Origin: Thalassotalea nanhaiensis
Lineage (GTDB): Bacteria; Pseudomonadota; Gammaproteobacteria; Enterobacterales; Alteromonadaceae
Direction: 5' to 3'
Assembly (NCBI RefSeq): GCF_031583575.1
Contig: NZ_CP134146.1
Coordinates: 372,001-436,000 of the forward strand
DNA length: 64,000 nt
The notes beneath the pieces are model-generated. The model was not told where the DNA came from. It saw nothing but the letters and a program-made list of their open reading frames with translations, and did not search any database. The translations under genes and the position numbers were made by a program. Of the stretch, positions 29,751 to 49,903 are shown in pieces (position 1 is the first letter of the stretch; every line of letters begins with the position of its first letter).

Positions 29751-31265
29751 ATGAAAAACATAACAATAATAGCGTCAATGCTTTATTTTATTTCCAGTCT
29801 TGCTTTGGCAAATGACACAGACAATAGCCGTAATCTGGAAATAGACCATAAAGTGGTCACAAAACATGAAACAGAAGTAAACGGTGAAGATTTTTCTTAC
29901 ACTGCAACCGCTGGTACTCAACCGGTATGGAATGAAAACGGCGAAGCAATAGCTGCGTTACATTACACCTATTACCAGCGTGACGATGTAAAAAATAGAG
30001 CATCTCGACCATTACTTATTTCATTTAATGGTGGTCCTGGTTCTGCTTCTGTATGGATGCATGTTGCGTACACTGGACCACGTGTTTTAAACGTTGATTC
30101 TGAAGGTTACCCACTGCAACCTTATGGCGTTAAAACTAATCCATATTCTGTTTTAGATACTGCCGATATCGTATTTGTTAACCCTGTAAATACTGGCTAT
30201 TCTCGTATTTTGAAAAATAAAGAAGGTAAACTGCCTTCAAAAGAAGAGCAAAAGAAACTGTTCTTTGGTGTAAATGCTGATGTGAAATACTTAGCAGAAT
30301 GGCTAAACACGTTTGTTACTCGTAACAATCGCTGGCGCTCACCTAAATATTTAATCGGTGAAAGCTACGGTACTACACGAGTTTCAGGTTTAGCGCTTGA
30401 ATTGCAAAGCCGCCAATGGATGTATTTAAACGGCGTAGTGTTAGTATCTCCTACAGATATTGGTATTGAGCGTAATGGACCGGTAAAAGCAGCGAACCGT
30501 TTGCCTTATTTTGCCGCAGCAGCTTGGTATCACAAAGCGCTAGGATCTGATTTACAAAGTAAAGATTTAGCAGAAGTATTACCAGAAGTAGAAACATTTA
30601 CTATCAATGAGTATTTACCGGCGTTAGCAATGGGTGGTTTTATTGCTCCTGAGCACAAACAAAAAATCGCTGAGCAGGTGGCTAAGTATTCAGGTTTAAG
30701 TGTTGATGAAGTGTTGAAATCTAATTTAGATATTTCAGCTCGCTATTTTTGGAAAGAATTATTACGTGAGCGTGGTCAAACAATTGGTCGCTTGGACTCT
30801 CGTTATTTAGGTATTGATAAACAAGATGTAGGTGACAGTCCAGATTATAGTGCTGAACTTACCTCTTGGTTGCATTCATTTACCCCAGCGATTAATTATT
30901 ACATGAGTGAAGAGTTAAATTACAAAACCGACATTAAGTACAACATGTTTGGTAATGTTCACCCATGGGATAGAACGAATAATAATACCGGTGAAAATTT
31001 ACGTTTAGCTATGGCGCAAAACCCATACTTAAACGTTATGGTACAGGCCGGTTATTTTGATGGCGCAACTAACTATTTTGATGCCAAGTATACTATGTGG
31101 CAATTGGACCCAAGCAGTAAAATGAAACAGCGTTTAAGCTTTCAAGGTTACCGAAGTGGTCACATGATGTATTTACGTGCTGAAGACTTAATGAAATCAA
31201 ACAACGATTTACGTGATTTTATCAAGGCAAGCATGCCGGCTAAAGACCAAGCGGCAAAATATTAG
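29751..31265 (+). CDS. Secreted S10-family serine carboxypeptidase
   Basis: A 504-residue exported protein (signal peptide MKNITIIASMLYFISSLALA). It shows the S10 alpha/beta hydrolase layout: FNGGPGSASVWMH for the oxyanion region, IGESYGTTR with nucleophile S205, an Asp in the QAGYFDGATNYFD segment, and H471 in GYRSGHMMYLR. S10 enzymes cleave C-terminal residues from peptides and are active at acid pH in eukaryotes. The length fits. The gene stands alone and ends at the second REP-like palindrome. A role in peptide scavenging is inferred. Confidence 0.87.
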   Translation: MKNITIIASMLYFISSLALANDTDNSRNLEIDHKVVTKHETEVNGEDFSYTATAGTQPVWNENGEAIAALHYTYYQRDDVKNRASRPLLISFNGGPGSASVWMHVAYTGPRVLNVDSEGYPLQPYGVKTNPYSVLDTADIVFVNPVNTGYSRILKNKEGKLPSKEEQKKLFFGVNADVKYLAEWLNTFVTRNNRWRSPKYLIGESYGTTRVSGLALELQSRQWMYLNGVVLVSPTDIGIERNGPVKAANRLPYFAAAAWYHKALGSDLQSKDLAEVLPEVETFTINEYLPALAMGGFIAPEHKQKIAEQVAKYSGLSVDEVLKSNLDISARYFWKELLRERGQTIGRLDSRYLGIDKQDVGDSPDYSAELTSWLHSFTPAINYYMSEELNYKTDIKYNMFGNVHPWDRTNNNTGENLRLAMAQNPYLNVMVQAGYFDGATNYFDAKYTMWQLDPSSKMKQRLSFQGYRSGHMMYLRAEDLMKSNNDLRDFIKASMPAKDQAAKY

Positions 31266-34409: not shown

Positions 34410-36545
34410 ATGATTCATAATCAATATATGATTGGGCCTTGCCTGCTTGATTGTCAAACCATGAGTTTGTCATATCAAGAAGAGACAATTAAGCTGTCAG
34501 TAAAAGTGTTTGAACTACTTAAATTGTTTCTCATAAGTAGTGAAAATATCGTCAGCAGACAAGCTGCTATCGAATCTATTTGGCTCGGGAATGAAGGGGT
34601 TGGTAAACGTGGTTATACCAATGCCGTTTGGACCTTAAGAAAGACATTTAAAGAACTTGGCTTGGAAGAGGATGATTTATTCATTACCTTGCCGAAAGTA
34701 GGTTACCAACTTAGCTTAAATGTTGAAGCCATCAAGTTAAATGAAAGCGTAGACGAAAACGCAGATACTGCTCTAAAAGCTCAATTGAAAAGCAATAGCG
34801 CAATGAGTAAATTTAGGCTTGTAAGTGCTTTTGCATTAATTGTTGTACTCATTGCTGTTTTCTTTATGTTGAAAAATATGAATGATCACCAGCACGCTGA
34901 TTCAAACAACACAGAAATAAGTAAACCTGTTGTCCTCACCCAAAATAAAGTTACTAATTTTGAAGGAATTGAAGAACATCCTGCCGTTGCCAATAATGGC
35001 CAATACGTCGCGTTTCAATGGCTTCGTGAAAATTCCAAAGGCAAAATATATATTCAAGACTTGAAAAACAGCTCTACCCCATTGCGATTAATTACTATGG
35101 TGGATAAAGAAGAAGCGTCACCTGTTTGGTCATTCAACGACGAGTCATTAGCCTATATAAGAATTACCGAAAAAGGTAACTGTCAGGTTCGAGTGCGTCA
35201 GATAGTGACAAATAGTGACTCATTAGTTGATGACGATTGTTTTTATCAACCATTTAAGCGTGTACTTACTTGGTCAAATGCAAATGATAAAGCATTAACC
35301 TATACCAAGAGAATCAATGATGGCGTAGCATTATTTCGCTATGATTTTGAGTCAAAAGTTTCCACTCAAATAACCTATCCTTTAGCAGGAGACGTTGATT
35401 TTGCACCTCATTGGTCCGCTGATAATAAAACCTTGGCATTTATTCGAGAGCAGGGCACACAAGTAAATAATATTCTCCTGCAAGCAGAAGATAAAACGAT
35501 ACAAACTATTCTCAAAAACAAAGTAGGTATTGTCGATCTTGATTGGGATTTGGTACGAAATGAAATTTATACTAATTTGGCTGAAGATGGACGTTATGCA
35601 ATTAAGAAGATCTCATTACCAAATCTTGAAGAAACTCTAATAACAGATCATGGATTGCCGAGTAATATTTCGTTTAATAATCGTAGCGGAAAATTATTTT
35701 TTACCAATCATATATCAAAAGAATACATTGCTCAGTTATCACTGGATACTGGAAGAATAATACGTAAGATTTCTTCTTCTTCAAGAGATCTTTATGGTCG
35801 ATTTGTGGCAGAAACTGGTGACATTATTTTCCTTTCCAACCGAGCTGACAATTGGGCTCTTTGGTTGAATAATAAACAAAGCAGTATTAACTTAACGAAG
35901 GAGCTTGGCAATGCAACCGTACCAGCCGTTTCTCCTGATGGCAGAAAGTTTGCGGTAAATATTCGCTCATTTGATGATAATGAGAGAAGTTTGTACATTG
36001 GCTCGATAGAAACGCGAGATCTGCATAAAATTGATACTAACGGTATATATGCTGATAACTTAAGTTGGTCACGAGACGGTGAATCGATTTATTTCTATGG
36101 CAGTAATAAAACCAACTCAGGTATCTACAAACTCCATTTAGCGAGCAAAAAGATAGACCAAATCACCAATAAAGGTGAGCACTATGCGATCGAATCTAAT
36201 GACGGCAAACTTTATGTTAGTCGCTCAAATAAAGATGGTATCTGGTCGTTTGATCTTAAAACTGCTGAATTTAACCTTGTTACTGAAGAATTAGCTGCTT
36301 ACGATTACGCCGCGTTCTTTTTGCAAAATGGAGATATTTATTATTTAAATCGTGATGCTGATGCCGACCTACTTAAACGTATCAACAGTAAAGGCGACAC
36401 TGAAATTTTGATTTCTTATCCGAAAAATAGCATCAGAAAATTCTTCGGCATATCCTCTGCGACAGAAAATAGTTTTCTCGCCACATTGAAAATTACTAAT
36501 GAAGCTGACATCAACTCTGTAACAGTCGTTAACACCAATCAATAA
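34410..36545 (+). CDS. ToxR/CadC-like membrane transcription regulator with TolB-type propeller
   Basis: A 711-residue one-component regulator. An OmpR/PhoB-type winged helix occupies residues about 10-105 (SVKVFELLKLFLIS, NAVWTLRKTFKELG, FITLPKVGYQL). One membrane helix follows (about 136-155) and then a periplasmic domain of about 550 residues. That domain holds repeated TolB/WD40-like blades (VAFQWL, SPVWSFNDESLAYI, APHWSADNKTLAFI, VPAVSPDGRKFAVN, NLSWSRDGESIYFY). Related Alteromonadales regulators are thought to sense periplasmic signals and act on neighbouring genes. It precedes the S8 protein gene in the same direction, so that cluster is the obvious target; this is inference. Confidence 0.85.
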   Translation: MIHNQYMIGPCLLDCQTMSLSYQEETIKLSVKVFELLKLFLISSENIVSRQAAIESIWLGNEGVGKRGYTNAVWTLRKTFKELGLEEDDLFITLPKVGYQLSLNVEAIKLNESVDENADTALKAQLKSNSAMSKFRLVSAFALIVVLIAVFFMLKNMNDHQHADSNNTEISKPVVLTQNKVTNFEGIEEHPAVANNGQYVAFQWLRENSKGKIYIQDLKNSSTPLRLITMVDKEEASPVWSFNDESLAYIRITEKGNCQVRVRQIVTNSDSLVDDDCFYQPFKRVLTWSNANDKALTYTKRINDGVALFRYDFESKVSTQITYPLAGDVDFAPHWSADNKTLAFIREQGTQVNNILLQAEDKTIQTILKNKVGIVDLDWDLVRNEIYTNLAEDGRYAIKKISLPNLEETLITDHGLPSNISFNNRSGKLFFTNHISKEYIAQLSLDTGRIIRKISSSSRDLYGRFVAETGDIIFLSNRADNWALWLNNKQSSINLTKELGNATVPAVSPDGRKFAVNIRSFDDNERSLYIGSIETRDLHKIDTNGIYADNLSWSRDGESIYFYGSNKTNSGIYKLHLASKKIDQITNKGEHYAIESNDGKLYVSRSNKDGIWSFDLKTAEFNLVTEELAAYDYAAFFLQNGDIYYLNRDADADLLKRINSKGDTEILISYPKNSIRKFFGISSATENSFLATLKITNEADINSVTVVNTNQ

Positions 36546-36902: not shown

Positions 36903-39900
36903 ATGAGATTTAATAAAACGGCTATTACGCTCGGCATTAGTGCGGCGATATTAGCGAACACATCCATGGCTGAAAATGCTGTTGAAAGCAAAGCTGCTTA
37001 TTCAGCAGCGCCTGAAACAACCACTCAAATAGTGATTCGCCTTAAAGATAGCGCTGCGCTTGAACGTGGTTTTGAGGTGAGAAGCGATTACAGTAAAGAA
37101 GCGAATCAAATTAGTGAACAGCAACAACAGGTCTTTCAACAAATCCTAGCGATTGCTCCAAATGCTCAGTTGCTGGGACAAGCTCGTTTGTTGTCGAACT
37201 TTATTACTGTTCAGTTGGATGGTGATACTGATGTTATCAATAAAATTACTGAATTAAATGCGGTTCAGTCAGTTGTTAGTCAGCCACTTGAGTCTCGTTC
37301 AGTATTATCGAATAAAAGAACTTCAGTTCAAGCTCAAACTAATGCAGAAGAAAGCAGTGAAGAAGTTGCATTAATGGCACCTTATAATAATTCTGACACT
37401 GCCGGTTCAGGAGCAACAGTTGCCATTATCTCCACTGGTATTGATTACACCTTGCCAATTTTTGGTGGTAGCGGCGTATATGGTGACGATGGCGACCCTG
37501 AGACACCACCAGCTGCAGGAAGCTACATGGAAGCACTTGAAAATGGTGCCGTAGGTCCAACAATTCCAGCGGTCGAAGATGACCCTGCAACACCTGATAT
37601 TGATGAAAGTGCAGATGCCATTCCAGGCTTTGACGGTTTCCCTACTGACGTAGTCGTTGGTGGTTGGGATTTCCAAGCAGAAAACTATGGTAATGATGCC
37701 AACCCAATTGATCAGAATCACCAATACGAACATTGGAACGGTGCTACTTACCCAACAGGTATGGGTACTGAGTTAGCGAGTATCGTACATCAGCTGGCAC
37801 CAGGTGCTGGGTTATATGCTTATAAAGTATTTGATGTGAGTGAAAGCTACGGCAGTATACGCGCACGATGGGCTAGTAGAACTCAAATTTTACAAGCGAT
37901 GGAGCATGCACTGGATCCAAATCAGGATGGCGATACAAGTGATCATGTTGATGTTGTTCTATTAGACTCAATGGGCGCTGCTGCATTTTATAATAAATAT
38001 GAACAATCAGGCTCTGGGTTTATTTTAGACCAAGAAATGATCCAAAGAGCTTCGGCATTGGGTATGACAGTTGTTACTAATGCCGGTATTGGCGGACATT
38101 TAAATTCAAATGGCGAAGCAACAGCAATGAATCATCGTGGCTGGATTTCGTGGGAAGGTTCTGCTCCAGCTGCTGTAACTGTGGGTTCTGCGGTTATTGC
38201 CGATGATGGTGAAACTATTGTGCCAGCTACATGGTCACCAATGGGACCTGTACGTGGTAGCAGAGATTTAAAACCTGAGGTAATGAGTTTTGCTCAAGAC
38301 ATTCCTGTAGCAAAAATCAGTAGTGGCGACGATATGGCGCCAACAAAGGGCAAGCGTAGTGATGCAACTGTTGCCGCAGCTCGAATTGCCGCAGCTATCG
38401 CAGTTATTAAATCAGCTCACCCTGGCCTAGGCCCGGTTGAACTTAAAGCGCTATTATCAAATACAGCTAACCATAATATTAAAGAAGTTGATGTTGAAAC
38501 TGGCGAAATTCTTGAACAAGCGGAGCTTCTTCATATTGGTCATGGTGTTGAAAACATAGAAGCCGCAACAAGTTCTCCTGTCGCTGTATGGGACAATGAA
38601 AGCAATCAACCGTATGTACAGTTTGGTTTTCATGAAGTTGCAGATAAGAAAGTTATCAACAAATCGATTATGGTTCGTAACTTCTCGGATTCTGTGCAAA
38701 CTTATACATTAGGTTTCAACGCCAATGGTGATAAAGAAGCACAATCTGCGATCAGCCTAAATTATCCTGAGAGTGTATCTGTTCCAGCAAATCACTCCGT
38801 GCTAATTAATGTTGAAATGACAATTGATGGCACTATGTTGCCAGCATGGTCAATGGTTTCGTCTGAAGATTACACCAGCGAAAATTACTTACAAAGCGAA
38901 TTAAATGGTTACTTCCAATTAACGTCTGAAGGTCAACCTGAGCTAAATGTTGGTTGGATGGTGCAAGCTCGTCCAAGTAGTACCATAAATAAAAATGTTG
39001 TGGTTCAAGAGTTTCCTTTATCATTAGGCTGGAATGCAGATTTAGGCCGTAGTGAATGGCTTAACATCGGTTGGGCGGAGCAGTTTTATCCTACCACTTT
39101 TGATGAGAGTCCTCAGTATTTTGCTTTAGCGTCATCGTTTATCAACGAATCAAATACTGCAACAACCTATGAAGCGTACCCGGTGATTGTAAAAGCCGAT
39201 AATCCGCCAAAAGATAAGGCTAAAACCTTCGGTCATAAAATCAAAGCTGTTGCTGGTGGTTTATATGACGAGCCTATGTGTGAAATTTCAGGTAAAAAAC
39301 TGAGTATCGCAGTTAATTTATGGGAGCCGGCTCATGATGCTATGGCGAACTGGACCGATAAAATTGGAACCCCACTGTTTTTCTACGATATGTTTTCACA
39401 AGACGTGTTGAAAGAAACAGGTGCGGATGAAAGTTTTGCCGGCATTAGCCAATATGACGTAGCAGGTGGTGAGGCAGTTTTACTTGGCCAACCCTATGTA
39501 GACATTGATGAAAATGGTCAACCAGCGACCTTTTATATCGATTACAACATGGAGTACGTTTACCTAGGGCCTTCTCGTATCAAGAAGTCAAAACTACCGG
39601 TACGTATCACTCCAAATGGGACTAATGTTGTTTCAGAAGTATGTCTTGAAGAATTATCACATCATGACATTAGTGATGCTGTAGATGACCCTTCAATTCC
39701 GTTAATGGTGCCTGAACTAGATGAAAATGGTAACCCAATAGCTGAAATGGCAGATTGTAGTGCGGCTGGCCTTACATTAGAAGAAATGATTGAGTTCGGT
39801 TACTGGCCTGCTTACTCTAGCTATTGTACGACTAGTACTGGTACTTTTGATGCCGAAGGTTATGCTACCGATGAGAACGGCGAACGCCTGTACAACATGG

Positions 39901-41018
39901 TAGAAAATACCGAACGTGGCGTGCCTGGACAAAATGAGTTGCTAAACTATTTTGACCAAAACTTTGGTTTCCATATAGAAACTGACCGCGATGCACAATC
40001 AGAAAAATTTGCTCCTATTGCTCAGTTTAATCCAACTAAACACGGTTTCTACTCTGATCCAGAAGAAGTATGTACTAATGGTTGGTTTGGTATGGTTTGT
40101 GAAGTGGTAAATATAGACCGCACGGTACAAGTTGGCTTTGCTAAAGTTAATGATGACAATCCAATTGAAACCGCTGAGTTTAGCCATATCATTACTCTTG
40201 AACCTAATGAAGAAGCCGCTATTGTTGCATTAAGAGCCGGGACTTTCGGTGCTGAAGGCGCAGACTTTATGGTTATCAGTACCGATGATAACTACGCAAT
40301 TACCGCTCCTTCTGACTATGTTGACGAAGATGGAACTCCTATGGCTTCTGTACGAACAGAGCAAGTATTCAGCGTAATGGAAAATGCCGAAGTAGGCACC
40401 GTTGTCGGTAAAATTAAACTGGATAAAGCAGGATTCTTTGGTATGACTTCTAGCACATATTCAGAGTTTATTTTAAGCATTGTGAATGCATTGCCTGGCT
40501 CTCCATTTACTATTAATCAAGAAACATTAGAGCTGGTTGTTGCCAACCCTGAAGCATTAGATTATGAAAATAATGCAAAGTTTGAGGTGATGGTACAAGC
40601 CAGTCAGGACCTTCGAAATGCCTCACAAGCAGCAATGATTACTGTTTGGATTGATAATGCTAATGACATCGCTCCTGAAGTTACAGCAACTGTCACTTCT
40701 GTGACTTCTGTTATCACTAACTCTAGTGATGCTGAAGTAGTGATTGATATTGCCGCTATGTTTACTGATGTCGAAGGCGACAGTTTGACGTTTACCGTAA
40801 CAGGCTTACCTATGGGCTTGACCTATGCAAACGGCCTAATCTCCGGAACTACCGATGTTGAAGGTGTGCATGTTCTTACCGTTACCGCTTCTGACGGTAT
40901 CAATGAAACAAGCACAAACCTTGAACTTGTCATTGAAGACGAAACCACATCAAGTGGTAGCTTTGGTGGATTCTTATTAGCATTTGCTGGTTTGTCATTC
41001 CTGCGTCGTCGCAAATAA
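36903..41018 (+). CDS. Giant exported S8-fold protein with degenerate catalytic site (putative pseudoprotease), GlyGly-CTERM
   Basis: A 1371-residue exported protein with signal peptide ending NTSMA (about 23). Order: inhibitor-I9-like prodomain (about 40-135), subtilisin-like domain (about 165-560), a long middle region, a cadherin-like repeat (LDYEN, then NDIAPEV), a CADG/He_PIG-type Ig domain (GDSLTFTV...GLISGT), and a GlyGly-CTERM tail ending FLRRRK. The S8 sites are altered: catalytic Asp is S177 (IISTGID), His is M287 (TGMGTE), and the oxyanion Asn in AGN is I396. Only Ser seems kept (S486 in KRSDAT). An active protease is therefore unlikely; it may bind peptides or assist the neighbouring protease. 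It ends at a strong terminator. Confidence 0.85.
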   Translation: MRFNKTAITLGISAAILANTSMAENAVESKAAYSAAPETTTQIVIRLKDSAALERGFEVRSDYSKEANQISEQQQQVFQQILAIAPNAQLLGQARLLSNFITVQLDGDTDVINKITELNAVQSVVSQPLESRSVLSNKRTSVQAQTNAEESSEEVALMAPYNNSDTAGSGATVAIISTGIDYTLPIFGGSGVYGDDGDPETPPAAGSYMEALENGAVGPTIPAVEDDPATPDIDESADAIPGFDGFPTDVVVGGWDFQAENYGNDANPIDQNHQYEHWNGATYPTGMGTELASIVHQLAPGAGLYAYKVFDVSESYGSIRARWASRTQILQAMEHALDPNQDGDTSDHVDVVLLDSMGAAAFYNKYEQSGSGFILDQEMIQRASALGMTVVTNAGIGGHLNSNGEATAMNHRGWISWEGSAPAAVTVGSAVIADDGETIVPATWSPMGPVRGSRDLKPEVMSFAQDIPVAKISSGDDMAPTKGKRSDATVAAARIAAAIAVIKSAHPGLGPVELKALLSNTANHNIKEVDVETGEILEQAELLHIGHGVENIEAATSSPVAVWDNESNQPYVQFGFHEVADKKVINKSIMVRNFSDSVQTYTLGFNANGDKEAQSAISLNYPESVSVPANHSVLINVEMTIDGTMLPAWSMVSSEDYTSENYLQSELNGYFQLTSEGQPELNVGWMVQARPSSTINKNVVVQEFPLSLGWNADLGRSEWLNIGWAEQFYPTTFDESPQYFALASSFINESNTATTYEAYPVIVKADNPPKDKAKTFGHKIKAVAGGLYDEPMCEISGKKLSIAVNLWEPAHDAMANWTDKIGTPLFFYDMFSQDVLKETGADESFAGISQYDVAGGEAVLLGQPYVDIDENGQPATFYIDYNMEYVYLGPSRIKKSKLPVRITPNGTNVVSEVCLEELSHHDISDAVDDPSIPLMVPELDENGNPIAEMADCSAAGLTLEEMIEFGYWPAYSSYCTTSTGTFDAEGYATDENGERLYNMVENTERGVPGQNELLNYFDQNFGFHIETDRDAQSEKFAPIAQFNPTKHGFYSDPEEVCTNGWFGMVCEVVNIDRTVQVGFAKVNDDNPIETAEFSHIITLEPNEEAAIVALRAGTFGAEGADFMVISTDDNYAITAPSDYVDEDGTPMASVRTEQVFSVMENAEVGTVVGKIKLDKAGFFGMTSSTYSEFILSIVNALPGSPFTINQETLELVVANPEALDYENNAKFEVMVQASQDLRNASQAAMITVWIDNANDIAPEVTATVTSVTSVITNSSDAEVVIDIAAMFTDVEGDSLTFTVTGLPMGLTYANGLISGTTDVEGVHVLTVTASDGINETSTNLELVIEDETTSSGSFGGFLLAFAGLSFLRRRK

Positions 41019-41030
41019 CTTTTAAACACT

Positions 41031-41055
41031 AAGGTAAGCCCATTGGGCTTACCTT
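41031..41055 (+). terminator. Terminator between the two S8 genes
   Basis: AAGGTAAGCCC-ATT-GGGCTTACCTT, a perfect 11-bp stem with a 3-base loop, 13 bases after the stop of the first S8 gene. The following tract GTTTATT is only partly T-rich, so some readthrough to the next gene is possible. Confidence 0.75.
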
Positions 41056-41122
41056 GTTTATTAGACTCCTTAAGGTAAGTGTTTTAGCCCTTGCCTTATT
41101 CAATAGAAAAAGTTGCTTAACT

Positions 41123-44100
41123 ATGAAACCTTTTAAAACCTTACTTACACTACTTAGTGGAAGTATCTTTGCCTTTTCAGCAAATGCTGCATCCTTAAAC
41201 GATGGTCAGCAAATTCACCAACCAATCGTTGGCAAAGAAAAGATAAAATATTCCCGTTCACATAAAGCCCGTCAAGACTCGCTTTATTATATCCAATTAC
41301 ATGAACAACCATTAGCTGCCTACGATGGCAATATTAAAGGATTAACTGCGACCAGCATTACCGCTTCAAAGGGCAGCAATACTGATCAGTCTGGTATATT
41401 GAATGTCAAATCAACCAGTAGTAAAAACTACTTATCTTATTTGAGCCAGAAGCAAAACCAAATAATTTCTCTGGCAAACAAAACGCTAAAGCGTACCATC
41501 AAGGTTCGTCACAACTATAAAGTAATCGTAAATGCACTCGCGGCAGAAATTACTGCTGAAGAAGCTAAAGTTTTGGCCAAGCAACCAACTGTTAAGTCTG
41601 TAGAAAAAGTTGGTATGCATTACATTCAAACCGATAGTGGCCCTGAGTTTATCAAGGCGAAAAATATCTGGGATGGCGTGAGTGACTATGCCGGCACTAA
41701 AGGTGAAGGCGTTGTCGTTGGTATTATCGATACTGGTATTAATGCCTATCATCCATCATTTGCCGATATTGGTGGTGATGGTTACGATCATACCAACCCA
41801 CTTGGAACTGGTAACTATTTGCCGGGTGATTGTACTCTGTTCCCGCAATTTTGTAATGACAAGCTGATTGGTATTGTTAGTTATCCTGAAATAAGAGATA
41901 ACCGACCTGAAGTGGTCAATGAAAATTATGAAGAGCTTGATGACAAATTAAAAGTTGGTTACGACTTTAATGCTCATGGTAGCCATGTATCATCGACGGT
42001 TGCCGGAAATATTTTAAACGATGTTCCTTATTATTTATCTGTAGTGGATGATATTGGCAGTATCGTACAAGAAAGTGAATTTCAATTTCCTCAAGTTAGC
42101 GGTGTTGCCCCGCATGCCAATATTGTGTCTTACCAAGTATGTAACGATGAAGGTTGTTATTCAGAATTAACATTGCTTGCAGTAGAGCATGCGATTGAAA
42201 ATGGCGTTAACGTATTAAATTACTCTGTAGGTGGAGGGTATCGCGACCCTTGGACTTCAATTGATACTCTTGCCTTTTTGAATGCACGTGAAGCGGGTAT
42301 CCATGTAGCAACGTCTGCAGGTAACAGTGGCCCAGATGCTCAAACTATAGGTGCACCAGGAAACGCACCTTGGATCACAACCGTAGCCGCTTATACTCAT
42401 GATCGTGCCTTTAGTGAAAAAGCCCTAACAGCTTTTAGTGGTGGTGAAACCACTCCAGCAGATATCAGTGGTCTGGGCGCGACAAAAGCGTATACCGGCA
42501 CTGTAGTGTTGGCGAAAGATTTTGGCGATGCAATGTGTTTGGAGCCATTTGAAGAAGACACGTTCAATGGTGAAATTGTAGTTTGTCAGCGTGGTGAAAT
42601 TGCCAGAGTTCGCAAAGGTTTAAATGTTCAACTGGGTGGTGCAGGCGGTCTTATTTTAGCCAATATAGAAGGTGAAACAGCAGGCATTAACGCCGATAAT
42701 CATGTACTTCCGGCTATTCATATTAACGCGGCTAACGGTAAAGTATTAACTGACTGGATGGCCACAGGCAGTGACCATCAACTAACCATTACTGGCTCTG
42801 AGCTTATTAGTGATGAATCTTTAGGCGACATAGCGGCTTATTTCTCTTCTCGTGGTCCTAATCTACCTTATGCGAATATTTTTGCACCAGATGTGGCCGG
42901 TCCGGGTGTTGATATTTATGCTGCCAATTCAGAAGATCATCCATTTACTGAAGACGTGACTGAAGTGCCTTTTACTACGATGAGCGGTACATCGATGTCT
43001 AGCCCACATGTTGCAGGTGCCATGGCATTAATTTATGCAGTACATCCAGACTGGACACCTGCGCAAGTGCAATCTGCGTTAATGACAACTGCACAACATA
43101 ATACCCGAAAAGATGATGATTTTGATGGTGAAACAGAGCGTTCAAATTTCTTCGATCAAGGTGCGGGTAGTATTCGTGTCGATGCTGCGGTAACTGCCGG
43201 CTTGCTATTAGATATTTCTAAAGCTGAATACATAGAAGCAAACCCGCAAACAGGTGGTGATCCAACTTCGCTTAATTCATCTTCTATGGTTGGAGAAAAA
43301 TGTATTTCAGTTTGTACATGGAGCAGAACTGTAACTGCAACAGCAGATGCTACATGGACAGCAACATATGAATACATCAACCCTGGTGTTGACCTAACTA
43401 TTAGTCCGGCAAGTTTCACATTGGCTGCTGGCGAAAGCCAGGAAATCACCATAACGGCTGCTGCTAACATTGAGTTGGTTGATGAATGGACTCACAGTTT
43501 CGTTAAATTAACACCGAGCAATCGCGAAATTAGTGCAAGCCGCTTACAAGTTTTGGCTAATTTCGTTGCCGGTACTACTGATGAATTGGTCGAAGCTAAA
43601 ATTAATAATGTGCATAACATTGTTACTATCAGTGATGTACAAACGACGGGGTCAAATGATTTGCAAGTGCGTGGTTTTGGTTTATTTAAAACTCGACAAT
43701 ACACTGGTCAAGCGGCTGGTGCAGGCGAAGATAAAGAAATATTTAGAAATTTAGATACCATTTTTGCCAAGCAAATCGTCATACCGGCGTATACCAAACG
43801 TATTGTTGTAGACATCATTTCTTCTACATCTCCAGATATGGACTTATTTGTTGGCCTTGATGAAGATAACGATGGTGTACCTAATTTTTACGAATTGTAC
43901 TATTCAACACTTTGTTTAAGCGGCAACGTAGACTCTGTGGAACATTGTTATATTGAAAACCCACCAGCGGGAACCTATTGGGTATTTGCTCATAACTTTG
44001 AAGGTACAGCCGTTGGCACGATGGATGATGTCACTATTGAAATTGGGGTGGTGAATTATACTGAAGAGCCTTCATTTACGATCGAAGCGCCCGTCACTGT

Positions 44101-45007
44101 AGCCCAAGATGAGTTGTTTGATATTAATTTAATCATACAAAATGCGGTGGTGAATAATGCGCTTGATGATATTCAACCCGGCGAGAAATACTATGGTTTA
44201 GTGCAAATTGGTACAACACTTGAGCTTAAACGTAATGTTGGGGAAACATTAATAAGTTTAACCGCAATCGAAAATGAAGCGGTGCTGTCAGCAGCGCTGG
44301 AGCAAGCTGTTGCTGGCGCTGAATTAGATTATGCCATTGAACTACCTGCTAACAGTACTTCATCTGATAAAAGTTATGAGGTGAGTGTAACTTTACCAGA
44401 AGGTTTCACCTTGGTGTCTTCAACGTCTGATGCGGTGGTAACAGGTAATTTAATCGAATTTACTGTTATTCAACCGGCAAATGGCGAGATAAGTACAATT
44501 GATTTTGTTATTGCGACCACACAAATTAATGCTGCAGGTGACTACCTGTTAACTGCACAATATTCTGTCAATGGCGTTGGTAGTGTCGTATTAAATAGCG
44601 CACCAATAACTATCGAAATGCCAGTACAAGCGTTAATCAATGATAACGAAGCCCTTTCGTTATCAATAAACGAAGGTACAGCAGCCGTTACATTATCAGC
44701 CTTAAACAGTGTAAAAAGTGTGGAAACTGATGTGCTGACCTACACCTGGGTGCAAACATCAGGTACTGCTTTAGCATTGAGTGCACTAGATTCTGCAGAA
44801 GTTAGTTTTGCCACACCAACTGACTTAATTGCTTCTGGTAGCTACAGCTATGAAGTGACTGTTAGTAATGGTCGCTCTTCAGATACAGCAACAGTAACAA
44901 TCAATATTGCAAACGTTGAACCAGAAAAGAAATCTTCTGGTGGAGGCTCAACCGGTATTTTATTCATATTGATTGGCGTATTCGCCACAGTGCTAAGACG
45001 CAGGTAA
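41123..45007 (+). CDS. Secreted S8 subtilisin-like protease with PA insert and GlyGly-CTERM tail
   Basis: About 1294 residues from the ATG at 41123, which gives a clean signal peptide (MKPFKTLLTLLSGSIFAFSANA). An upstream TTG reading would start inside the terminator stem. An I9 prodomain (about 53-168) precedes the S8 domain with D203 (GIIDTGIN), H285 (AHGSHV), N401 (SAGNSG) and S624 (SGTSMSSPHVAG), all intact. A PA domain is inserted at about 460-550. A PPC-like beta domain (DMDLFVGLDEDNDG), Ig/PKD-like regions and a GlyGly-CTERM tail (SSGGG, helix, LRRR) follow. Expected to be a type II-secreted endoprotease anchored or released by a rhombosortase. Confidence 0.92.
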   Translation: MKPFKTLLTLLSGSIFAFSANAASLNDGQQIHQPIVGKEKIKYSRSHKARQDSLYYIQLHEQPLAAYDGNIKGLTATSITASKGSNTDQSGILNVKSTSSKNYLSYLSQKQNQIISLANKTLKRTIKVRHNYKVIVNALAAEITAEEAKVLAKQPTVKSVEKVGMHYIQTDSGPEFIKAKNIWDGVSDYAGTKGEGVVVGIIDTGINAYHPSFADIGGDGYDHTNPLGTGNYLPGDCTLFPQFCNDKLIGIVSYPEIRDNRPEVVNENYEELDDKLKVGYDFNAHGSHVSSTVAGNILNDVPYYLSVVDDIGSIVQESEFQFPQVSGVAPHANIVSYQVCNDEGCYSELTLLAVEHAIENGVNVLNYSVGGGYRDPWTSIDTLAFLNAREAGIHVATSAGNSGPDAQTIGAPGNAPWITTVAAYTHDRAFSEKALTAFSGGETTPADISGLGATKAYTGTVVLAKDFGDAMCLEPFEEDTFNGEIVVCQRGEIARVRKGLNVQLGGAGGLILANIEGETAGINADNHVLPAIHINAANGKVLTDWMATGSDHQLTITGSELISDESLGDIAAYFSSRGPNLPYANIFAPDVAGPGVDIYAANSEDHPFTEDVTEVPFTTMSGTSMSSPHVAGAMALIYAVHPDWTPAQVQSALMTTAQHNTRKDDDFDGETERSNFFDQGAGSIRVDAAVTAGLLLDISKAEYIEANPQTGGDPTSLNSSSMVGEKCISVCTWSRTVTATADATWTATYEYINPGVDLTISPASFTLAAGESQEITITAAANIELVDEWTHSFVKLTPSNREISASRLQVLANFVAGTTDELVEAKINNVHNIVTISDVQTTGSNDLQVRGFGLFKTRQYTGQAAGAGEDKEIFRNLDTIFAKQIVIPAYTKRIVVDIISSTSPDMDLFVGLDEDNDGVPNFYELYYSTLCLSGNVDSVEHCYIENPPAGTYWVFAHNFEGTAVGTMDDVTIEIGVVNYTEEPSFTIEAPVTVAQDELFDINLIIQNAVVNNALDDIQPGEKYYGLVQIGTTLELKRNVGETLISLTAIENEAVLSAALEQAVAGAELDYAIELPANSTSSDKSYEVSVTLPEGFTLVSSTSDAVVTGNLIEFTVIQPANGEISTIDFVIATTQINAAGDYLLTAQYSVNGVGSVVLNSAPITIEMPVQALINDNEALSLSINEGTAAVTLSALNSVKSVETDVLTYTWVQTSGTALALSALDSAEVSFATPTDLIASGSYSYEVTVSNGRSSDTATVTINIANVEPEKKSSGGGSTGILFILIGVFATVLRRR

Positions 45008-45065: not shown

Positions 45066-45091
45066 AATCAATTATCTAAGGCATGAAGTAT

Positions 45092-47194
45092 ATGCTCTCA
45101 AAAATCCCACGTTTTATAATCACAGCAACGGTATGTTTGATAATAGTTGCTTGTGGAGGCGATGATAAAGCGTTAAACGCTTCGCCAACTCTAGCGATAC
45201 ATGCCCCGGTAGAATCAAACGAGCTTGAAGTTGTAGAGTTATCTGCTGTTGCAGCTGATGATGATGGCGTTATTTCATCATATTTATGGCAGCAAATAGC
45301 AGGCACGCCTGTTGTGCTAAACGGCGTTAATCATTTAACCGTTAGTTTTACGGCACCTGAAATAGCTCAGGATGAAATATTAGAATTTTCCCTTACGGTA
45401 CAAGATAACGACGGAGCTGAAGCTAGAGAAACTGTTAGCTTATCGGTGCTAAATGTGAATAAACTACCATCAATCACTATTGATGCTGTTCAACAAGTTA
45501 ACGAGTTGAGTGTGTTGAATTTAGCTGCAACAGCGAGTGATGAAGATGGCGAAATTGTCAGTTACAACTGGCAGCAAGTATCAGGAACAGCAGCAAACTT
45601 AGTGAGCAATACTGAAGCTGAATTAATGATTTTATTGCCCAATATTGAACTTGATGAGCTATTAACTTTTACCTTAACGGTTACTGATGATGCTGCTGGC
45701 CAAACAACAGAAGAAATTTCCATCTTGGTCAAAGCTTTGACTTTGGCACAGAGCAGCTCTCTTGTGGCAGAACATGTTATAGAAAACGATCCTAGTTCTT
45801 CCATATTTATTTCAGCATTCGATATCCAACTGGATGATTCTGTACTCGAAAGCGTGTCATTTTCGATTCTGGCGAAAAAACAAGCCGTTGCCTCAGAAAT
45901 TAAGGCAACATACGAGATTGAACGGCTAAGTAAAATTGATGGAGGCGTGCAACTACCAATATTTGGCATGTATCGTGGCTATAACAATACTATTGAATTA
46001 GCTTTTAAGTTTATCGATGGCTCTACAAAACTTTTAACTAAACAAGTTGAAACTGAAACACTGATTGAACCTGAAGATAGCCCGTTCAACCAGTATAAAA
46101 TATCATCACCATCTCTTTATCAATCGTCACCAAGTTATGATTATTTATTAATGAAAACGGCTAGGCATGGACCAGTCATTATGGATGTTGATGGTAATGT
46201 CCGATGGCAAGCATATATGCCTGATAATGAATTTTACAACGGTTATTCATCTATATTCGATAATGGTGCATTTAGAATAGCGTTAAAAAACAAACTCTAT
46301 ACATTAGAGCTGGACGGTACATTTTCCAGCGTTGAGATTAATCATGATGAGTTTACTGACATTGCAGCCCACCACGAATTAAGTAAGGGAAAAACAGGTT
46401 ACTTTGTTGAAGTAGACGCCAATAAATCAGGAACTACTGAGCAAATTATTGAATCAATTTTACTTGAAGTAGATGAAAGCGGCGATGTCATTAATACATG
46501 GGACTTTGCTGATATATTGTCAGATTACATGATTGAAAATGGCGATGACCCTGCAAATTTTGTTCGAAACGGAGTTGATTGGTTTCATATGAACTCGGCT
46601 ATTTACAGTGAAAGTGATGATTCAATTATCGTTTCAAGCCGTGAAAATTTTGTCATCAAAATTGATTATAAAACCGCAAAAATCAAGTGGCTGCTAGGGG
46701 ATGAAAGTAAACACTGGTATGTAAATTATCCATCGTTACGAACGTTGTCGTTATTATCAAATGATACCAAGCCAATTGGGCAACATGCGCTGTCTTTAGT
46801 TGCGGGTGAGTTATTGCTATTTAATGATGGTCAGTTCAGTTTTAACCAACCTGAAGAACAACCTGAAGGTCTTGCACTCACTTCAAGCCCTTCGGCTAAA
46901 TATGTTATTGATGAGAATACATTGACTGCTTCTGTTTCATGGGAGTATGACCCAGCTATATACAGTGATGTATGTTCAAGTATCTATCAAGATGAAAGTT
47001 CAGTTACAGGGGATTATTTAGTAAATTTTGCTGCGGTAAACCGCCTTAATTCAGAGCCCATTGCAACGATCATTCAAGGAGTAAATGAAGATAAAGAGCT
47101 AATGTTTGAATTTCAATTTGAAACTAAAGCACCTTGTGCCGCGGCATGGAATAGTAGCATTGTTTATGGGTTAACAGACTTACAGGTGAACTAG
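45092..47194 (+). CDS. Arylsulfotransferase-like (ASST) lipoprotein with two PKD-type domains
   Basis: About 700 residues. The ATG at 45092 is preferred (AAGG ten bases upstream, one base from the ATG at 45083). A lipoprotein signal ends in IVAC (cleavage before CGGDD). Two PKD/REJ-like modules follow (each with DDDG or DEDG and SYLWQQIAGT or SYNWQQVSGT). The C-terminal half resembles the arylsulfate sulfotransferase propeller: PVIMDVDGNVRWQ, NGVDWFHMNSAIYSESDDS, IIVSSRENFVIKIDYKTAKI, KWLLGD and GQHALSL. ASST enzymes move sulfate between phenols without PAPS. I cannot place the transient sulfo-histidine with certainty, so activity is uncertain. Confidence 0.75.
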   Translation: MLSKIPRFIITATVCLIIVACGGDDKALNASPTLAIHAPVESNELEVVELSAVAADDDGVISSYLWQQIAGTPVVLNGVNHLTVSFTAPEIAQDEILEFSLTVQDNDGAEARETVSLSVLNVNKLPSITIDAVQQVNELSVLNLAATASDEDGEIVSYNWQQVSGTAANLVSNTEAELMILLPNIELDELLTFTLTVTDDAAGQTTEEISILVKALTLAQSSSLVAEHVIENDPSSSIFISAFDIQLDDSVLESVSFSILAKKQAVASEIKATYEIERLSKIDGGVQLPIFGMYRGYNNTIELAFKFIDGSTKLLTKQVETETLIEPEDSPFNQYKISSPSLYQSSPSYDYLLMKTARHGPVIMDVDGNVRWQAYMPDNEFYNGYSSIFDNGAFRIALKNKLYTLELDGTFSSVEINHDEFTDIAAHHELSKGKTGYFVEVDANKSGTTEQIIESILLEVDESGDVINTWDFADILSDYMIENGDDPANFVRNGVDWFHMNSAIYSESDDSIIVSSRENFVIKIDYKTAKIKWLLGDESKHWYVNYPSLRTLSLLSNDTKPIGQHALSLVAGELLLFNDGQFSFNQPEEQPEGLALTSSPSAKYVIDENTLTASVSWEYDPAIYSDVCSSIYQDESSVTGDYLVNFAAVNRLNSEPIATIIQGVNEDKELMFEFQFETKAPCAAAWNSSIVYGLTDLQVN

Positions 47195-47266: not shown

Positions 47267-49903
47267 TTAGAACTTGTAACTAGCTCTTAAGTAAGCGAAT
47301 TGTCCTTGGCCGCTATGCACATTTACGGCAAAGCCCATAAAGTCATGGTAGGCAAAAGGAGGCTCTTCATTAAATAGGTTTGTTGCACCTAAAGTAAATA
47401 CTGTGTTTTCGAAACCATAGTAATTTACTGCTGCATCGACCGTTACAAATGAATCTAAAGATGAAATACCAGGTGCTTGCACAGAAGCATCTTGTTCAAA
47501 TTCATCAATATAGTTTATTGCAGCGTTTGCACCGATGTTACCGTTGCCGCTTATCCAATCTACCCCTGCAGTCCAACGAAATTCTGGTTGTTCAAAATCA
47601 CCAGCTTCCGTATCAATACGTTGACCACCGTTACCATCAGGACGTTTATCTTCATACTCAAGTACATAGTTAAGTACATAAGATAATTTGAATTGACCCA
47701 TGCCGGTGTCTAAATTCCAACGTAAATCGAAATCTAAGCCAGATGTATCTAAATCACCTATATTTTGGAATGAATCAAATATTTGTACGACCTCACCAGG
47801 ATCGCCAGGTAATGTCGATGGTAAGCGTTCTACCACATCAGGATCAGCACCAAAATTACTAAATACAAACTGCGTATCTGAGTCGATAATATCTTCAATC
47901 TCGTAACTGTAATAATCGACCGAGAAGCTTAAGTTATCGGTAACATTATATACTACGCCTAGATTGTAACTTGTTGATTCTTCTGGTCCTAAATCAGGGT
48001 TACCTTCAAATACCGCGGTATATTCTTGCGGCTCACAGGCTTTATTAATATTACCTACCGCATCACAACGTACGGTATCAACTAAGTTTGGCGATTCATC
48101 TGTACGACCTAAACCTAATTGATGTAAAGAAGGTGCTCTAAATGCGGTACCATATGAACCACGTAAACTTAGATTATCCAAAGGTGCCCATAAGAAAGAT
48201 ACTTTCGGATCGGTTGTAGTACCAAAGTCACTATAGTCTTCATGACGAACAGCTAATTGAACTTCTAATGAATCTAATACCGGAATGGCTAACTCAGCAA
48301 ATATCGCAGTATTGTCTCTACTACCATTCGCTTGAGTTGCTTCAGTACCAAATACATTACCACGTAAGAATTGATCATCAGGGTTATCGCTAATTGACTC
48401 TTCACGATATTCCGCACCTACACCAATCATTAAATCGCCCGCTGGCATTTCAAATACCGGCCCAGAAATTTTTGCATCAATGGTTTTATTGGTAGACTTA
48501 CCTACTCGGGTAGTATTAGTTTCAATATACGCAAGTGCTTCCGCTGAGTTTGATGACGGTTCAAACGGGTTCCACAGTTCGCTATCTATCGCTTCTTGTA
48601 CGCGTTGTGAGTTTGGATAACCATCTACGCCCATCTCTACAGATTCACTTTTAATGTAACTGTAGGCAGCTTCCCAGTTCCATTCACCAAATTCACCACG
48701 TAAGCCAGTAATCACTCGATAGTAATCAGTGTCTACTTCTTTCTTACGATTGCCGATATCAACCATACGGCGTCGCATAGTTAAATCTTGCATGTAAAAT
48801 GGGTGAGTTGGATCATCAGCCATAGGATGATTGGCGTTATCACCACTCATGAATAACTCATTAAAGCTTGGGCTACCGGCACCACGGATCATGGTTTTGG
48901 CGTTTTGTCCGTTAAGCTCGGTAAAGAACTCTAAATTATCATTGATTTCATATTTACCCATGTAGTTATAACTAAAGCGCTCAGTTTGTGGCACCATAGA
49001 CATGTGCGGCGCATAATCATAGCGACATAAATTATTGGCGGTATCAATATCTTCAGCTGGACAGTGATCATTACCAAAGGTATCTGGTAATCGAACTGTT
49101 GGATCTGATGCTAAAGCAATTGTGCCCGGAATACCTGATGAACTTCTAAAGTCAGTGGCAAATTCATCGTTAGGGCGTTGTGCCGCTTGGTTTGCTGATT
49201 CAGAATAATCTCGATCTGCGTATAAAATTTCTCCGCGTCGGAAGTAATCTAAAACAAAGGTATGGCTAGTGGTTTCTGTACTGTTACCCCAAACAAGGCT
49301 AACATTTTCTTCTTCACCACCACCATCAGCGGTGTCACCAATTTTAGCGCTTATTTCAACGCCTTCAATATCATCACGTAAGATAATATTAATTACACCG
49401 GCAATCGCATCAGAGCCATAAGTTGCTGATGCACCATCTTTGAGAATATCAACTCGTTTAATCGCAGCTAACGGAATGTTATTAATATCCACAAACGCTG
49501 TATCAATACCTTTAGCAAATGGGCTGACTGATACGCGGCGACCGTTGACTAGAATTAGCGTTGAATCAGCACCTAAACCACGCAATGAAACACTAGAGCC
49601 ACCATTAGCAGTGTCATCACTACTGTTTGCTTGGGTAGAGAATGTCCCTTGACCGGCAATTGGCAGTTTAGTGAATAAACTGATGAGGTCGGTAACGCCA
49701 GACTTGGCAATGTCATCGGCTGACAAGCTGGTTAACGGTGAGGGCCCTTCCATATCTGTTCGTTTGATGTGTGAGCCGGTTACTTCAATGCGTTCAATAT
49801 CTGTTTCATCTTCAGCACTTATCGCGCTAAATCCTGTTGAAGTAAATAAAGTTGCACTTGTATAGAGTAAAACTGATCGGTTTATTTTTGATAGTTTAAA
49901 CAT
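47267..49903 (-). CDS. TonB-dependent outer-membrane receptor
   Basis: An 878-residue outer-membrane protein. The signal peptide (about 1-30) is followed by a TonB box-like ERIEVTGSHIKR and a plug domain: NGGSSVSLRGLGADSTLILVNGRR, then GASATYGSDAIAGVINIILR. A 22-strand barrel is expected, ending in LRASYKF with a terminal Phe. Related receptors of Alteromonadales import peptides, glycans or siderophores; the ligand is not evident. No ExbBD or inner-membrane transporter is adjacent. Its convergence with the S8/ASST genes suggests, but does not prove, uptake of their products. Confidence 0.93.
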   Translation of the reverse strand: MFKLSKINRSVLLYTSATLFTSTGFSAISAEDETDIERIEVTGSHIKRTDMEGPSPLTSLSADDIAKSGVTDLISLFTKLPIAGQGTFSTQANSSDDTANGGSSVSLRGLGADSTLILVNGRRVSVSPFAKGIDTAFVDINNIPLAAIKRVDILKDGASATYGSDAIAGVINIILRDDIEGVEISAKIGDTADGGGEEENVSLVWGNSTETTSHTFVLDYFRRGEILYADRDYSESANQAAQRPNDEFATDFRSSSGIPGTIALASDPTVRLPDTFGNDHCPAEDIDTANNLCRYDYAPHMSMVPQTERFSYNYMGKYEINDNLEFFTELNGQNAKTMIRGAGSPSFNELFMSGDNANHPMADDPTHPFYMQDLTMRRRMVDIGNRKKEVDTDYYRVITGLRGEFGEWNWEAAYSYIKSESVEMGVDGYPNSQRVQEAIDSELWNPFEPSSNSAEALAYIETNTTRVGKSTNKTIDAKISGPVFEMPAGDLMIGVGAEYREESISDNPDDQFLRGNVFGTEATQANGSRDNTAIFAELAIPVLDSLEVQLAVRHEDYSDFGTTTDPKVSFLWAPLDNLSLRGSYGTAFRAPSLHQLGLGRTDESPNLVDTVRCDAVGNINKACEPQEYTAVFEGNPDLGPEESTSYNLGVVYNVTDNLSFSVDYYSYEIEDIIDSDTQFVFSNFGADPDVVERLPSTLPGDPGEVVQIFDSFQNIGDLDTSGLDFDLRWNLDTGMGQFKLSYVLNYVLEYEDKRPDGNGGQRIDTEAGDFEQPEFRWTAGVDWISGNGNIGANAAINYIDEFEQDASVQAPGISSLDSFVTVDAAVNYYGFENTVFTLGATNLFNEEPPFAYHDFMGFAVNVHSGQGQFAYLRASYKF

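Follow-up and report, generated by a model that had tools for sequence, protein, structure and literature searches.

A family of pseudo-subtilases encoded beside intact S8 proteases in Thalassotalea nanhaiensis and other bacteria

The window analyzed here is a 64,000-nucleotide stretch of the Thalassotalea nanhaiensis genome (contig NZ_CP134146.1, positions 372,001 to 436,000), and our subject is a gene in it that encodes a protein of the S8 (subtilase) fold with replaced catalytic residues, hereafter the pseudo-subtilase, together with the S8 protease gene directly downstream. The original prediction, made from the sequence alone, was that this exoprotein is a maintained pseudoprotease that might work with its neighbor, and our analysis supported it. 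The coordinates, frame, and length of the gene were as it had claimed; the open reading frame (ORF) 36903-41018 runs from ATG to stop, encodes 1371 amino acids, and contains no internal stop. The features of the two genes are as follows.

36903..41018 (+): pseudo-subtilase gene, 1371 amino acids, with a signal peptide, prodomain-like unit, dead S8 domain, beta modules, cadherin domain, Ig-like region, and GlyGly-CTERM-like tail
37020..37283 (+): prodomain-like unit, about residues 40-127 (AlphaFold2 secondary structure and predicted local distance difference test score, pLDDT; without a Pfam match)
37398..38486 (+): dead S8 domain, about residues 166-528 (Pfam match and predicted fold)
37431..37433 (+): codon of Ser177 at the catalytic Asp position (alignment with intact S8 proteins)
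37761..37763 (+): codon of Met287 at the catalytic His position (alignment with intact S8 proteins)
38088..38090 (+): codon of Ile396 at the oxyanion Asn position (alignment with intact S8 proteins)
38367..38369 (+): codon of Thr489, not Ser486, at the catalytic Ser position (family alignment and phmmer alignment to Vpr)
40365..40652 (+): cadherin domain, residues 1155-1250 (Pfam PF00028, 31.8 bits, cut-off 28.8)
40950..41015 (+): GlyGly-CTERM-like sorting tail of the pseudo-subtilase (TIGR03501, 11.3 bits, below the cut-off of 15.5; custom tail pattern)
41030..41056 (+): 12-bp stem-loop between the two genes, terminator-like in the window copy, followed by a T-rich stretch
41123..45007 (+): partner S8 protease with intact D203, H285, N401, and S624, an I9 prodomain, a PA domain, a PKD-like domain, and a GlyGly-CTERM-like tail (custom pattern)

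The Pfam profile Peptidase_S8 (PF00082) matched residues 168-525 of the pseudo-subtilase with 43.3 bits (cut-off 21.8), far below the 179.6 bits of the downstream protease, and it matched all 24 members of the pseudo-subtilase family scanned at E <= 0.01. An AlphaFold2 model of residues 27-1150, built with 25 natural sequences, had a mean pLDDT of 77.0 and a predicted template-modeling score (pTM) of 0.76, with some stretches below 50. Foldseek itself ranked Vpr first for the model of the dead domain, and realignment of its best chains gave Vpr (8jmw) as the top solved fold, with Z 30.7 over 410 residues at 2.6 A; entries of the SpyCEP and ScpA types had Z of about 20-27, and subtilisin BPN' entries had Z of about 18 over about 258 residues at about 2.2 A. 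With a profile score above the curated cut-off and a predicted subtilisin fold, the protein belongs to the Peptidase_S8 fold. Its closest solved relatives, the Vpr- and C5a-peptidase-type subtilases, carry the triad (some entries are engineered inactive mutants), whereas D, H, N, and S are naturally replaced in the pseudo-subtilase. Ahead of the S8 region, about residues 40-127 were modeled as a beta-alpha-beta-beta-alpha-beta unit with block pLDDT values of about 78-92. The gene had been described as keeping its prodomain, cadherin-like and Ig-like modules, and GlyGly-CTERM tail. This held for the cadherin domain by Pfam and for the prodomain-like unit by AlphaFold2, whereas Inhibitor_I9 gave no reported Pfam match in the window protein (the partner protease matches with 27.4 bits), the Ig-like He_PIG domain was found in 10 of the 24 members scanned at E <= 0.01 with the window protein not among these, and the tail stayed under its curated cut-off. 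The same scan found cadherin in 16 of the 24.

When the window protein was aligned with four intact relatives, their catalytic columns D-H-N-S corresponded to S177, M287, I396, and T489, and the second His of the HGTH motif corresponded to Glu290. The original reading of the Asp, His, and oxyanion Asn positions, and of Glu290, was thus borne out. Its proposal that Ser486 still lines up with the nucleophile was not, because Ser486 lies three residues before the catalytic position and Thr489 aligns instead; the serine of the GTS motif stands opposite Thr489 both in the family alignment and in the phmmer alignment to Vpr (8jmw). By alignment, all three triad residues of the pseudo-subtilase are lost, nucleophile included, and the protein has neither the Asp-His-Ser triad nor the oxyanion Asn of an active S8 peptidase. 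D203, H285, N401, and S624 in the downstream protein were also confirmed.

The pseudo-subtilase and its relatives form a single clade in Thalassotalea, Thalassomonas, Colwellia, Shewanella, Neiella, Ferrimonas, and Solimonas, and in one record labeled Marinobacter. We obtained 52 distinct full-length members, comprising the window protein, 23 from its own genome and kin, 18 from named genomes, and 10 from wider kin. They were reached by searches with the protein and with alignments and from fetched neighborhoods, after removal of duplicates (L095, L097, L098, L116-L118, and L209-L211) and fragments; the partial copies L081 and L082, and G801, G827, and G940, whose coordinates match loci already counted, were also excluded. 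The 52 rows are not all independent (L204 and L205 are 98% identical). A contig search with the single protein as the query found no relative, whereas an alignment query did, and the best 80 of its 98 matches were used. In a class sample of 369 genomes, full-length matches occurred only in the window's genome among the matches listed; the others listed were partial, mostly in the cadherin/Ig region or S8 pieces, plus one intact S8 protein (G015). At E <= 1e-60, at least 16 of 395 genomes of the taxonomic family and at least 12 of 394 of the order gave matches; all three samples include the window's genome. The class, family, and order searches scored two candidates per genome, and their genome and copy counts are lower bounds. 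The distribution of the family looks patchy. The 4.3-Mb genome of T. nanhaiensis itself has 27 S8 matches (about 23 genes; four open frames contain two matches each), including five pseudoprotease-protease pairs. The two partial copies (L081, 7944-8933; L082, 1-1085, which runs off the contig end) had no recognizable partner in the DNA examined.

The catalytic Asp is absent from all 52 members, the column holding Ser in 29, Gly in 22, and Ala in 1, and judged from these sequences such total absence lies far beyond chance. The His is kept in three members (L213, L214, and L216), the Ser in three (L067, L069, and L080), and the Asn in nine, while no member has two triad residues and none has a complete triad; a homolog with a restored triad was thus not found among them. 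As many as 11 different residues occupy the His column and 14 the Ser column. As a control, D-H-N-S occurred in the same columns of 53 of 56 outside S8 loci from many phyla, and the other three end before the Ser. Together with the fold comparison, the sequence alignment revealed no other Asp or His residue in the triad positions. N267, K308, R451, and G452 are invariant in all 52 members and differ in the four intact relatives, which suggests that new constraints arose after activity was lost.

The dead domain is under purifying selection. Nei-Gojobori ratios of nonsynonymous to synonymous substitution rates (dN/dS) were 0.044-0.229 for the dead S8 domain in 14 of 15 comparisons (one was saturated) and 0.067-0.199 for the whole partner in 13 of 15; these ratios are rough, since several dS values exceed 1. 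With open frames in 52 members as well, the gene has neither the relaxed selection nor the broken frame of a pseudogene and, as originally proposed, is maintained rather than decaying. In a quick 48-row S8 tree, 20 pseudoproteases formed one group on a long branch, apart from the partners, with a Shimodaira-Hasegawa-like approximate likelihood ratio test (SH-aLRT) value of 100, and 19 partners grouped with an S8 protein encoded elsewhere in the T. nanhaiensis genome. This tree was built without five S8 proteins of that genome for which the procedure gave no single open frame and without the interrupted partner of locus L065. Origin of each pseudoprotease as a duplicate of its own neighbor is unsupported, because the pseudoproteases group together and not beside the partners.

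The pairing with an intact neighbor, first noticed in the window, is conserved throughout the family. At every one of the 52 loci, an S8 gene with catalytic residues adjoins the pseudo-subtilase gene. It follows directly on the same strand in 47, is fused in 2, and is divergent in 3, the last being Shewanella loci in which the S8 gene is 507-674 bases away. Same-strand gaps to the start of the partner's longest ORF range from -68 to 712 bases (median 43, n = 47), and the gap to the partner's ATG in the window is 104 bases. The partner ORFs keep His, Asn, and Ser in 52/52 and Asp in 51/52; the partner at L065 (10076-10900), otherwise a complete pair, contains one in-frame stop, and its Asp motif is found immediately before this ORF in the same reading frame. 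The two fusions occur in Solimonas flava and S. variicoloris (loci L111, 9797-17116, and L115, 9716-17038) as one frame of 2439 and 2440 codons, pseudoprotease first. At the joint, a tail composed of a Gly-rich stretch, a hydrophobic stretch, and an Arg cluster leads directly into a second signal-peptide-like stretch, and an ATG just before the latter is present in one Solimonas species and absent from the other. Such a product would be a polyprotein that contains a membrane hairpin and is processed to yield two mature chains.

The trees of the two proteins are also congruent. Pseudoprotease and protease tree distances correlated with r = 0.961 over 52 pairs, and 0 of 2000 permutations reached that value. 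Many pairs are linked to a CadC-like regulator gene, and among the 43 cassettes with a near full-length regulator, the correlation was 0.956 between pseudoprotease and protease, compared with 0.595 between pseudoprotease and regulator and 0.612 between protease and regulator. The regulator is an imperfect internal control for congruence, since its orientation varies and replacements may have occurred. In all six multi-pair genomes, the real pairing came top among all within-genome swaps, although the runner-up in the T. nanhaiensis genome was equal to four decimals. On a tree of partner-type proteases (32 of the 52 paired ones and 13 lone ones), the pairing label needs two changes, which with the outgroup used read as one gain and one loss; the loss maps to a group of six lone proteases, whose sister is the divergent arrangement of Shewanella.

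Between the two genes, a stem-loop (stem of at least 7 pairs, at least 4 of them G-C) was present in 29 of 36 testable cassettes compared with 14 of 42 control gene pairs, and a folding z of -2 or lower was found in 27 of 36 compared with 16 of 42. The controls include several protease-receptor gaps from the same operons, and the count leaves out 11 of the 47 same-strand cassettes with gaps of < 20 or > 300 bases. Stem-loop sequences are quite different among cassettes (L059, L062, L063, L072, L096, L104, L204, and others), and the structure is often found a short distance ahead of the protease start. Its effect may be to adjust how much pseudoprotease is made relative to protease.

Sorting tails were examined on both proteins. 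A custom pattern found a GlyGly-CTERM-like tail in all 52 partners and in 48 of the 50 pseudoproteases that are not fused. Of 24 proteins of each kind, TIGR03501 (GlyGly-CTERM) matched 5 pseudoproteases and 6 partners at E <= 1. A rhombosortase (TIGR03902) scored 176.8 bits in the T. nanhaiensis genome (cut-off 84), and one above the cut-off was found in all six other genomes searched. A report on a Vibrio protease attributes its surface localization and activation to such a tail and rhombosortase (PMC13393428).

We consider it probable that the pseudo-subtilase is the non-catalytic subunit of a two-part extracellular protease, because pairing holds in 52/52 cases, the two proteins are naturally fused in two Solimonas species, they have diversified together, and the dead domain is under selection. 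The fusion, the universal adjacency, and the tree congruence are indirect signs of a putative physical complex of the two proteins. In the proposed mechanism, both would leave the cytoplasm via Sec, the same rhombosortase would trim both, and they would end on the cell surface and associate there. Together with the prodomain-like unit and the cadherin/Ig-type modules, the dead S8 fold would then engage the substrate or gate the active partner, and several pairs per genome would provide different substrate ranges. As for the role of the subunit, engagement or positioning of the substrate leads, with a chance somewhat short of even; control of activity or maturation is distinctly less likely, and a folding or secretion chaperone, or a separate function that is merely co-expressed, is unlikely. 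These estimates overlap with those given below for the rival explanations.

Several observations weigh against a two-part protease. Six lone partner-type proteases (L225, L230-L233, and L235) have no pseudoprotease and are nested among paired ones; since the clade includes such unpaired proteases, the subunit is not always needed. The comparison of paired and lone enzymes gave no interface signal; of 159 conserved positions in the protease, S721 alone is changed in all six nested lone proteases, and the idea of a protease surface conserved only in paired enzymes was dropped on that count. Congruent trees are partly expected, since linkage alone can yield them, though the value for the linked regulator is much lower. 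The fused ORF may involve processing or internal initiation, and the activity of the partner is predicted only from its residues. In the window, the tail of the pseudo-subtilase scores 11.3 bits against a curated cut-off of 15.5, and its protease is not among the TIGR03501 matches at E <= 1. Finally, the same type of regulator stands beside lone long S8 genes of 1732-1738 amino acids (L226, 3587-5773; L227, 9836-11914), and the regulator is therefore not specific to the pairs.

The alternative that survives best is that the pseudoprotease is an inhibitor or maturation factor, which would silence the partner while it is in the periplasm or being secreted and would itself be removed or cleaved outside; we regard this as possible but doubtful. 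In favor of this, a protein that should be unable to cleave itself has kept a prodomain-like unit, the pseudoprotease gene precedes its partner in both fusions and in the 47 of 52 cases that are unfused and on the same strand, and the stem-loop between the genes (29/36 testable cassettes) could give an excess of the upstream product. However, the partner has an I9 prodomain of its own (27.4 bits), closely related proteases exist without a pseudoprotease, and an inhibitor would need neither the cadherin/Ig modules nor its own sorting tail.

A dedicated folding or secretion chaperone for the protease would also agree with co-inheritance, the pseudoprotease-first order, and fusion. We judge it improbable, since the six nested lone proteases do without it and since a chaperone would not need a sorting tail of its own, yet 48 of the 50 unfused members have one by the custom pattern. 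The existence of close relatives that stand alone makes a general folding chaperone less likely, and for the same reason the chaperone is the least favored of the three roles (chaperone, inhibitor, and substrate capture) that were originally suggested. On a par with it is an independent surface protein, an adhesin or binding protein that is only co-regulated with the protease. Its adhesive-type modules (cadherin in 16/24 and He_PIG in 10/24) would suit this role, whereas no full-length member was found without a protease among the 52, the Solimonas fusion speaks for a closer tie, and the match with the protease tree is far above that with the linked regulator. That the protein is an active enzyme whose catalytic site has moved or arisen anew is very improbable: new invariant residues such as K308 and R451 would fit one, but the His and Ser columns are variable (11 and 14 residues) and the old groove has no conserved set, a wholly new site not having been searched for. 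The chance that the gene is a pseudogene in decay, or a duplicated protease that was inactivated recently, is negligible; an ordinary pseudogene was ruled out, since the loss of all triad residues and the two partial copies elsewhere (L081 and L082) are outweighed by the low dN/dS of the dead domain, the intact long frames in 52 members, and a single tree group that does not lie next to the partners.

The nearest known system is CspBA/CspC of Clostridioides difficile, which is alike in outline and, by the models tested, a different family. CspA and CspC are subtilase pseudoproteases and CspB is active, CspB and CspA being made as a fusion (PMC12880746, PMC6636752). Both systems thus have subtilase pseudoproteases encoded beside an active subtilase, with one pair as a fusion, and CspC is described there as keeping an uncleaved prodomain, a further likeness to the present pseudo-subtilase. 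The Csp proteins, however, are spore proteins with a jelly-roll insert, and their fusion is named protease first. The present pairs, in contrast, have signal peptides and sorting-type tails, Gram-negative hosts, and several pairs in some genomes, and the Solimonas fusion has the pseudoprotease first with a likely membrane hairpin between the two parts. The Csp models NF040808 and NF040809 (CspC and CspBA) listed none of 24 pseudoproteases at E <= 1, though HMMER filters can drop very weak matches, and each listed 2 of 24 partner proteases, with best E values of 9.3e-05 and 6.1e-04. Csp structures were absent among the structure-search matches listed, which carries no information on Csp membership.

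The partner protease is closest in fold to the plant-type PA-domain subtilases cucumisin and SBT3 (Z 32.0 and 30.4), for which we know of no pseudoprotease partner. Among dead relatives of proteases that control an active protease or cascade are iRhom, which acts with ADAM17, and the clip-domain serine protease homologs of insects; these are eukaryotic and belong to unrelated protease families, unlike the bacterial pseudo-subtilase. Dentilisin of Treponema (PrtP) is a bacterial surface subtilase with co-encoded accessory subunits, which are not known to be subtilase-fold pseudoproteases. The PrtP model matched 20 of 24 partners at E <= 1, and the window partner scored 41.6 bits against a cut-off of 300. 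Among the top-ranked papers listed for inactive or pseudo subtilisins and related subjects, in a library that excludes most subscription journals, we found no description of the present family. To our knowledge, pseudoproteases that partner live proteases are known mainly from animals, parasites, and one spore system. The present family, conserved in free-living and mostly marine bacteria, provides naturally occurring pairs, a fusion, and a case in which pairing was lost, and some of the genomes have several paralogous pairs. It makes it possible to ask directly what a live protease gains from a dead partner. Because pseudo-subtilases match the S8 Pfam model (24/24 at E <= 0.01), their ORFs may be annotated as peptidases although they are not expected to cut.

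Two further genes flank the pair in the window.

34410..36545 (+): CadC-like regulator with a winged helix, one membrane segment (by eye), and PD40 repeats; a relative is near 45 of 52 cassettes
45083..47194 (+): arylsulfotransferase-type gene directly downstream of the partner; seen only here and at L062 among the 52 cassettes

In the DNA examined, the regulator relatives lie within 5 kb of those 45 cassettes, and some of the other seven are on short contigs or stretches. The arylsulfotransferase-type gene is peripheral because it is found at only two of the 52 cassettes. One-query searches of ORFs of at least 200 amino acids in the DNA examined found a same-strand TonB-dependent receptor directly after the protease in 10/52 cassettes (L061, L070, L071, L073, L074, and L076-L080), an M12B-type metalloprotease upstream in 6/52 (L061, L072, and L077-L080), and a leucine-rich repeat (LRR) protein upstream in 4/52 (L071 and L073-L075). 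These neighbors are confined to Thalassotalea-like genomes, and most other cassettes have none of them. The cassettes listed for these neighbors look like protein-utilization loci. We mention, as a speculation that we hold rather unlikely, a two-component protein-digestion machine on the cell surface, in which the dead subtilase would be a substrate receptor that hands the substrate to its own live subtilase; the pairs would be coupled to sensors of the CadC type, and some copies would supply a TonB-dependent receptor. It would be, roughly, the protein-eating counterpart of polysaccharide loci with a substrate-binding partner, and if it existed, each bacterium would acquire an array of substrate-specific receptor-protease units as entire pairs were duplicated. 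Near the window pair there are also a TonB-dependent receptor gene on the opposite strand (47267-49903, -) and an S10 carboxypeptidase-like gene (29751-31265, +).

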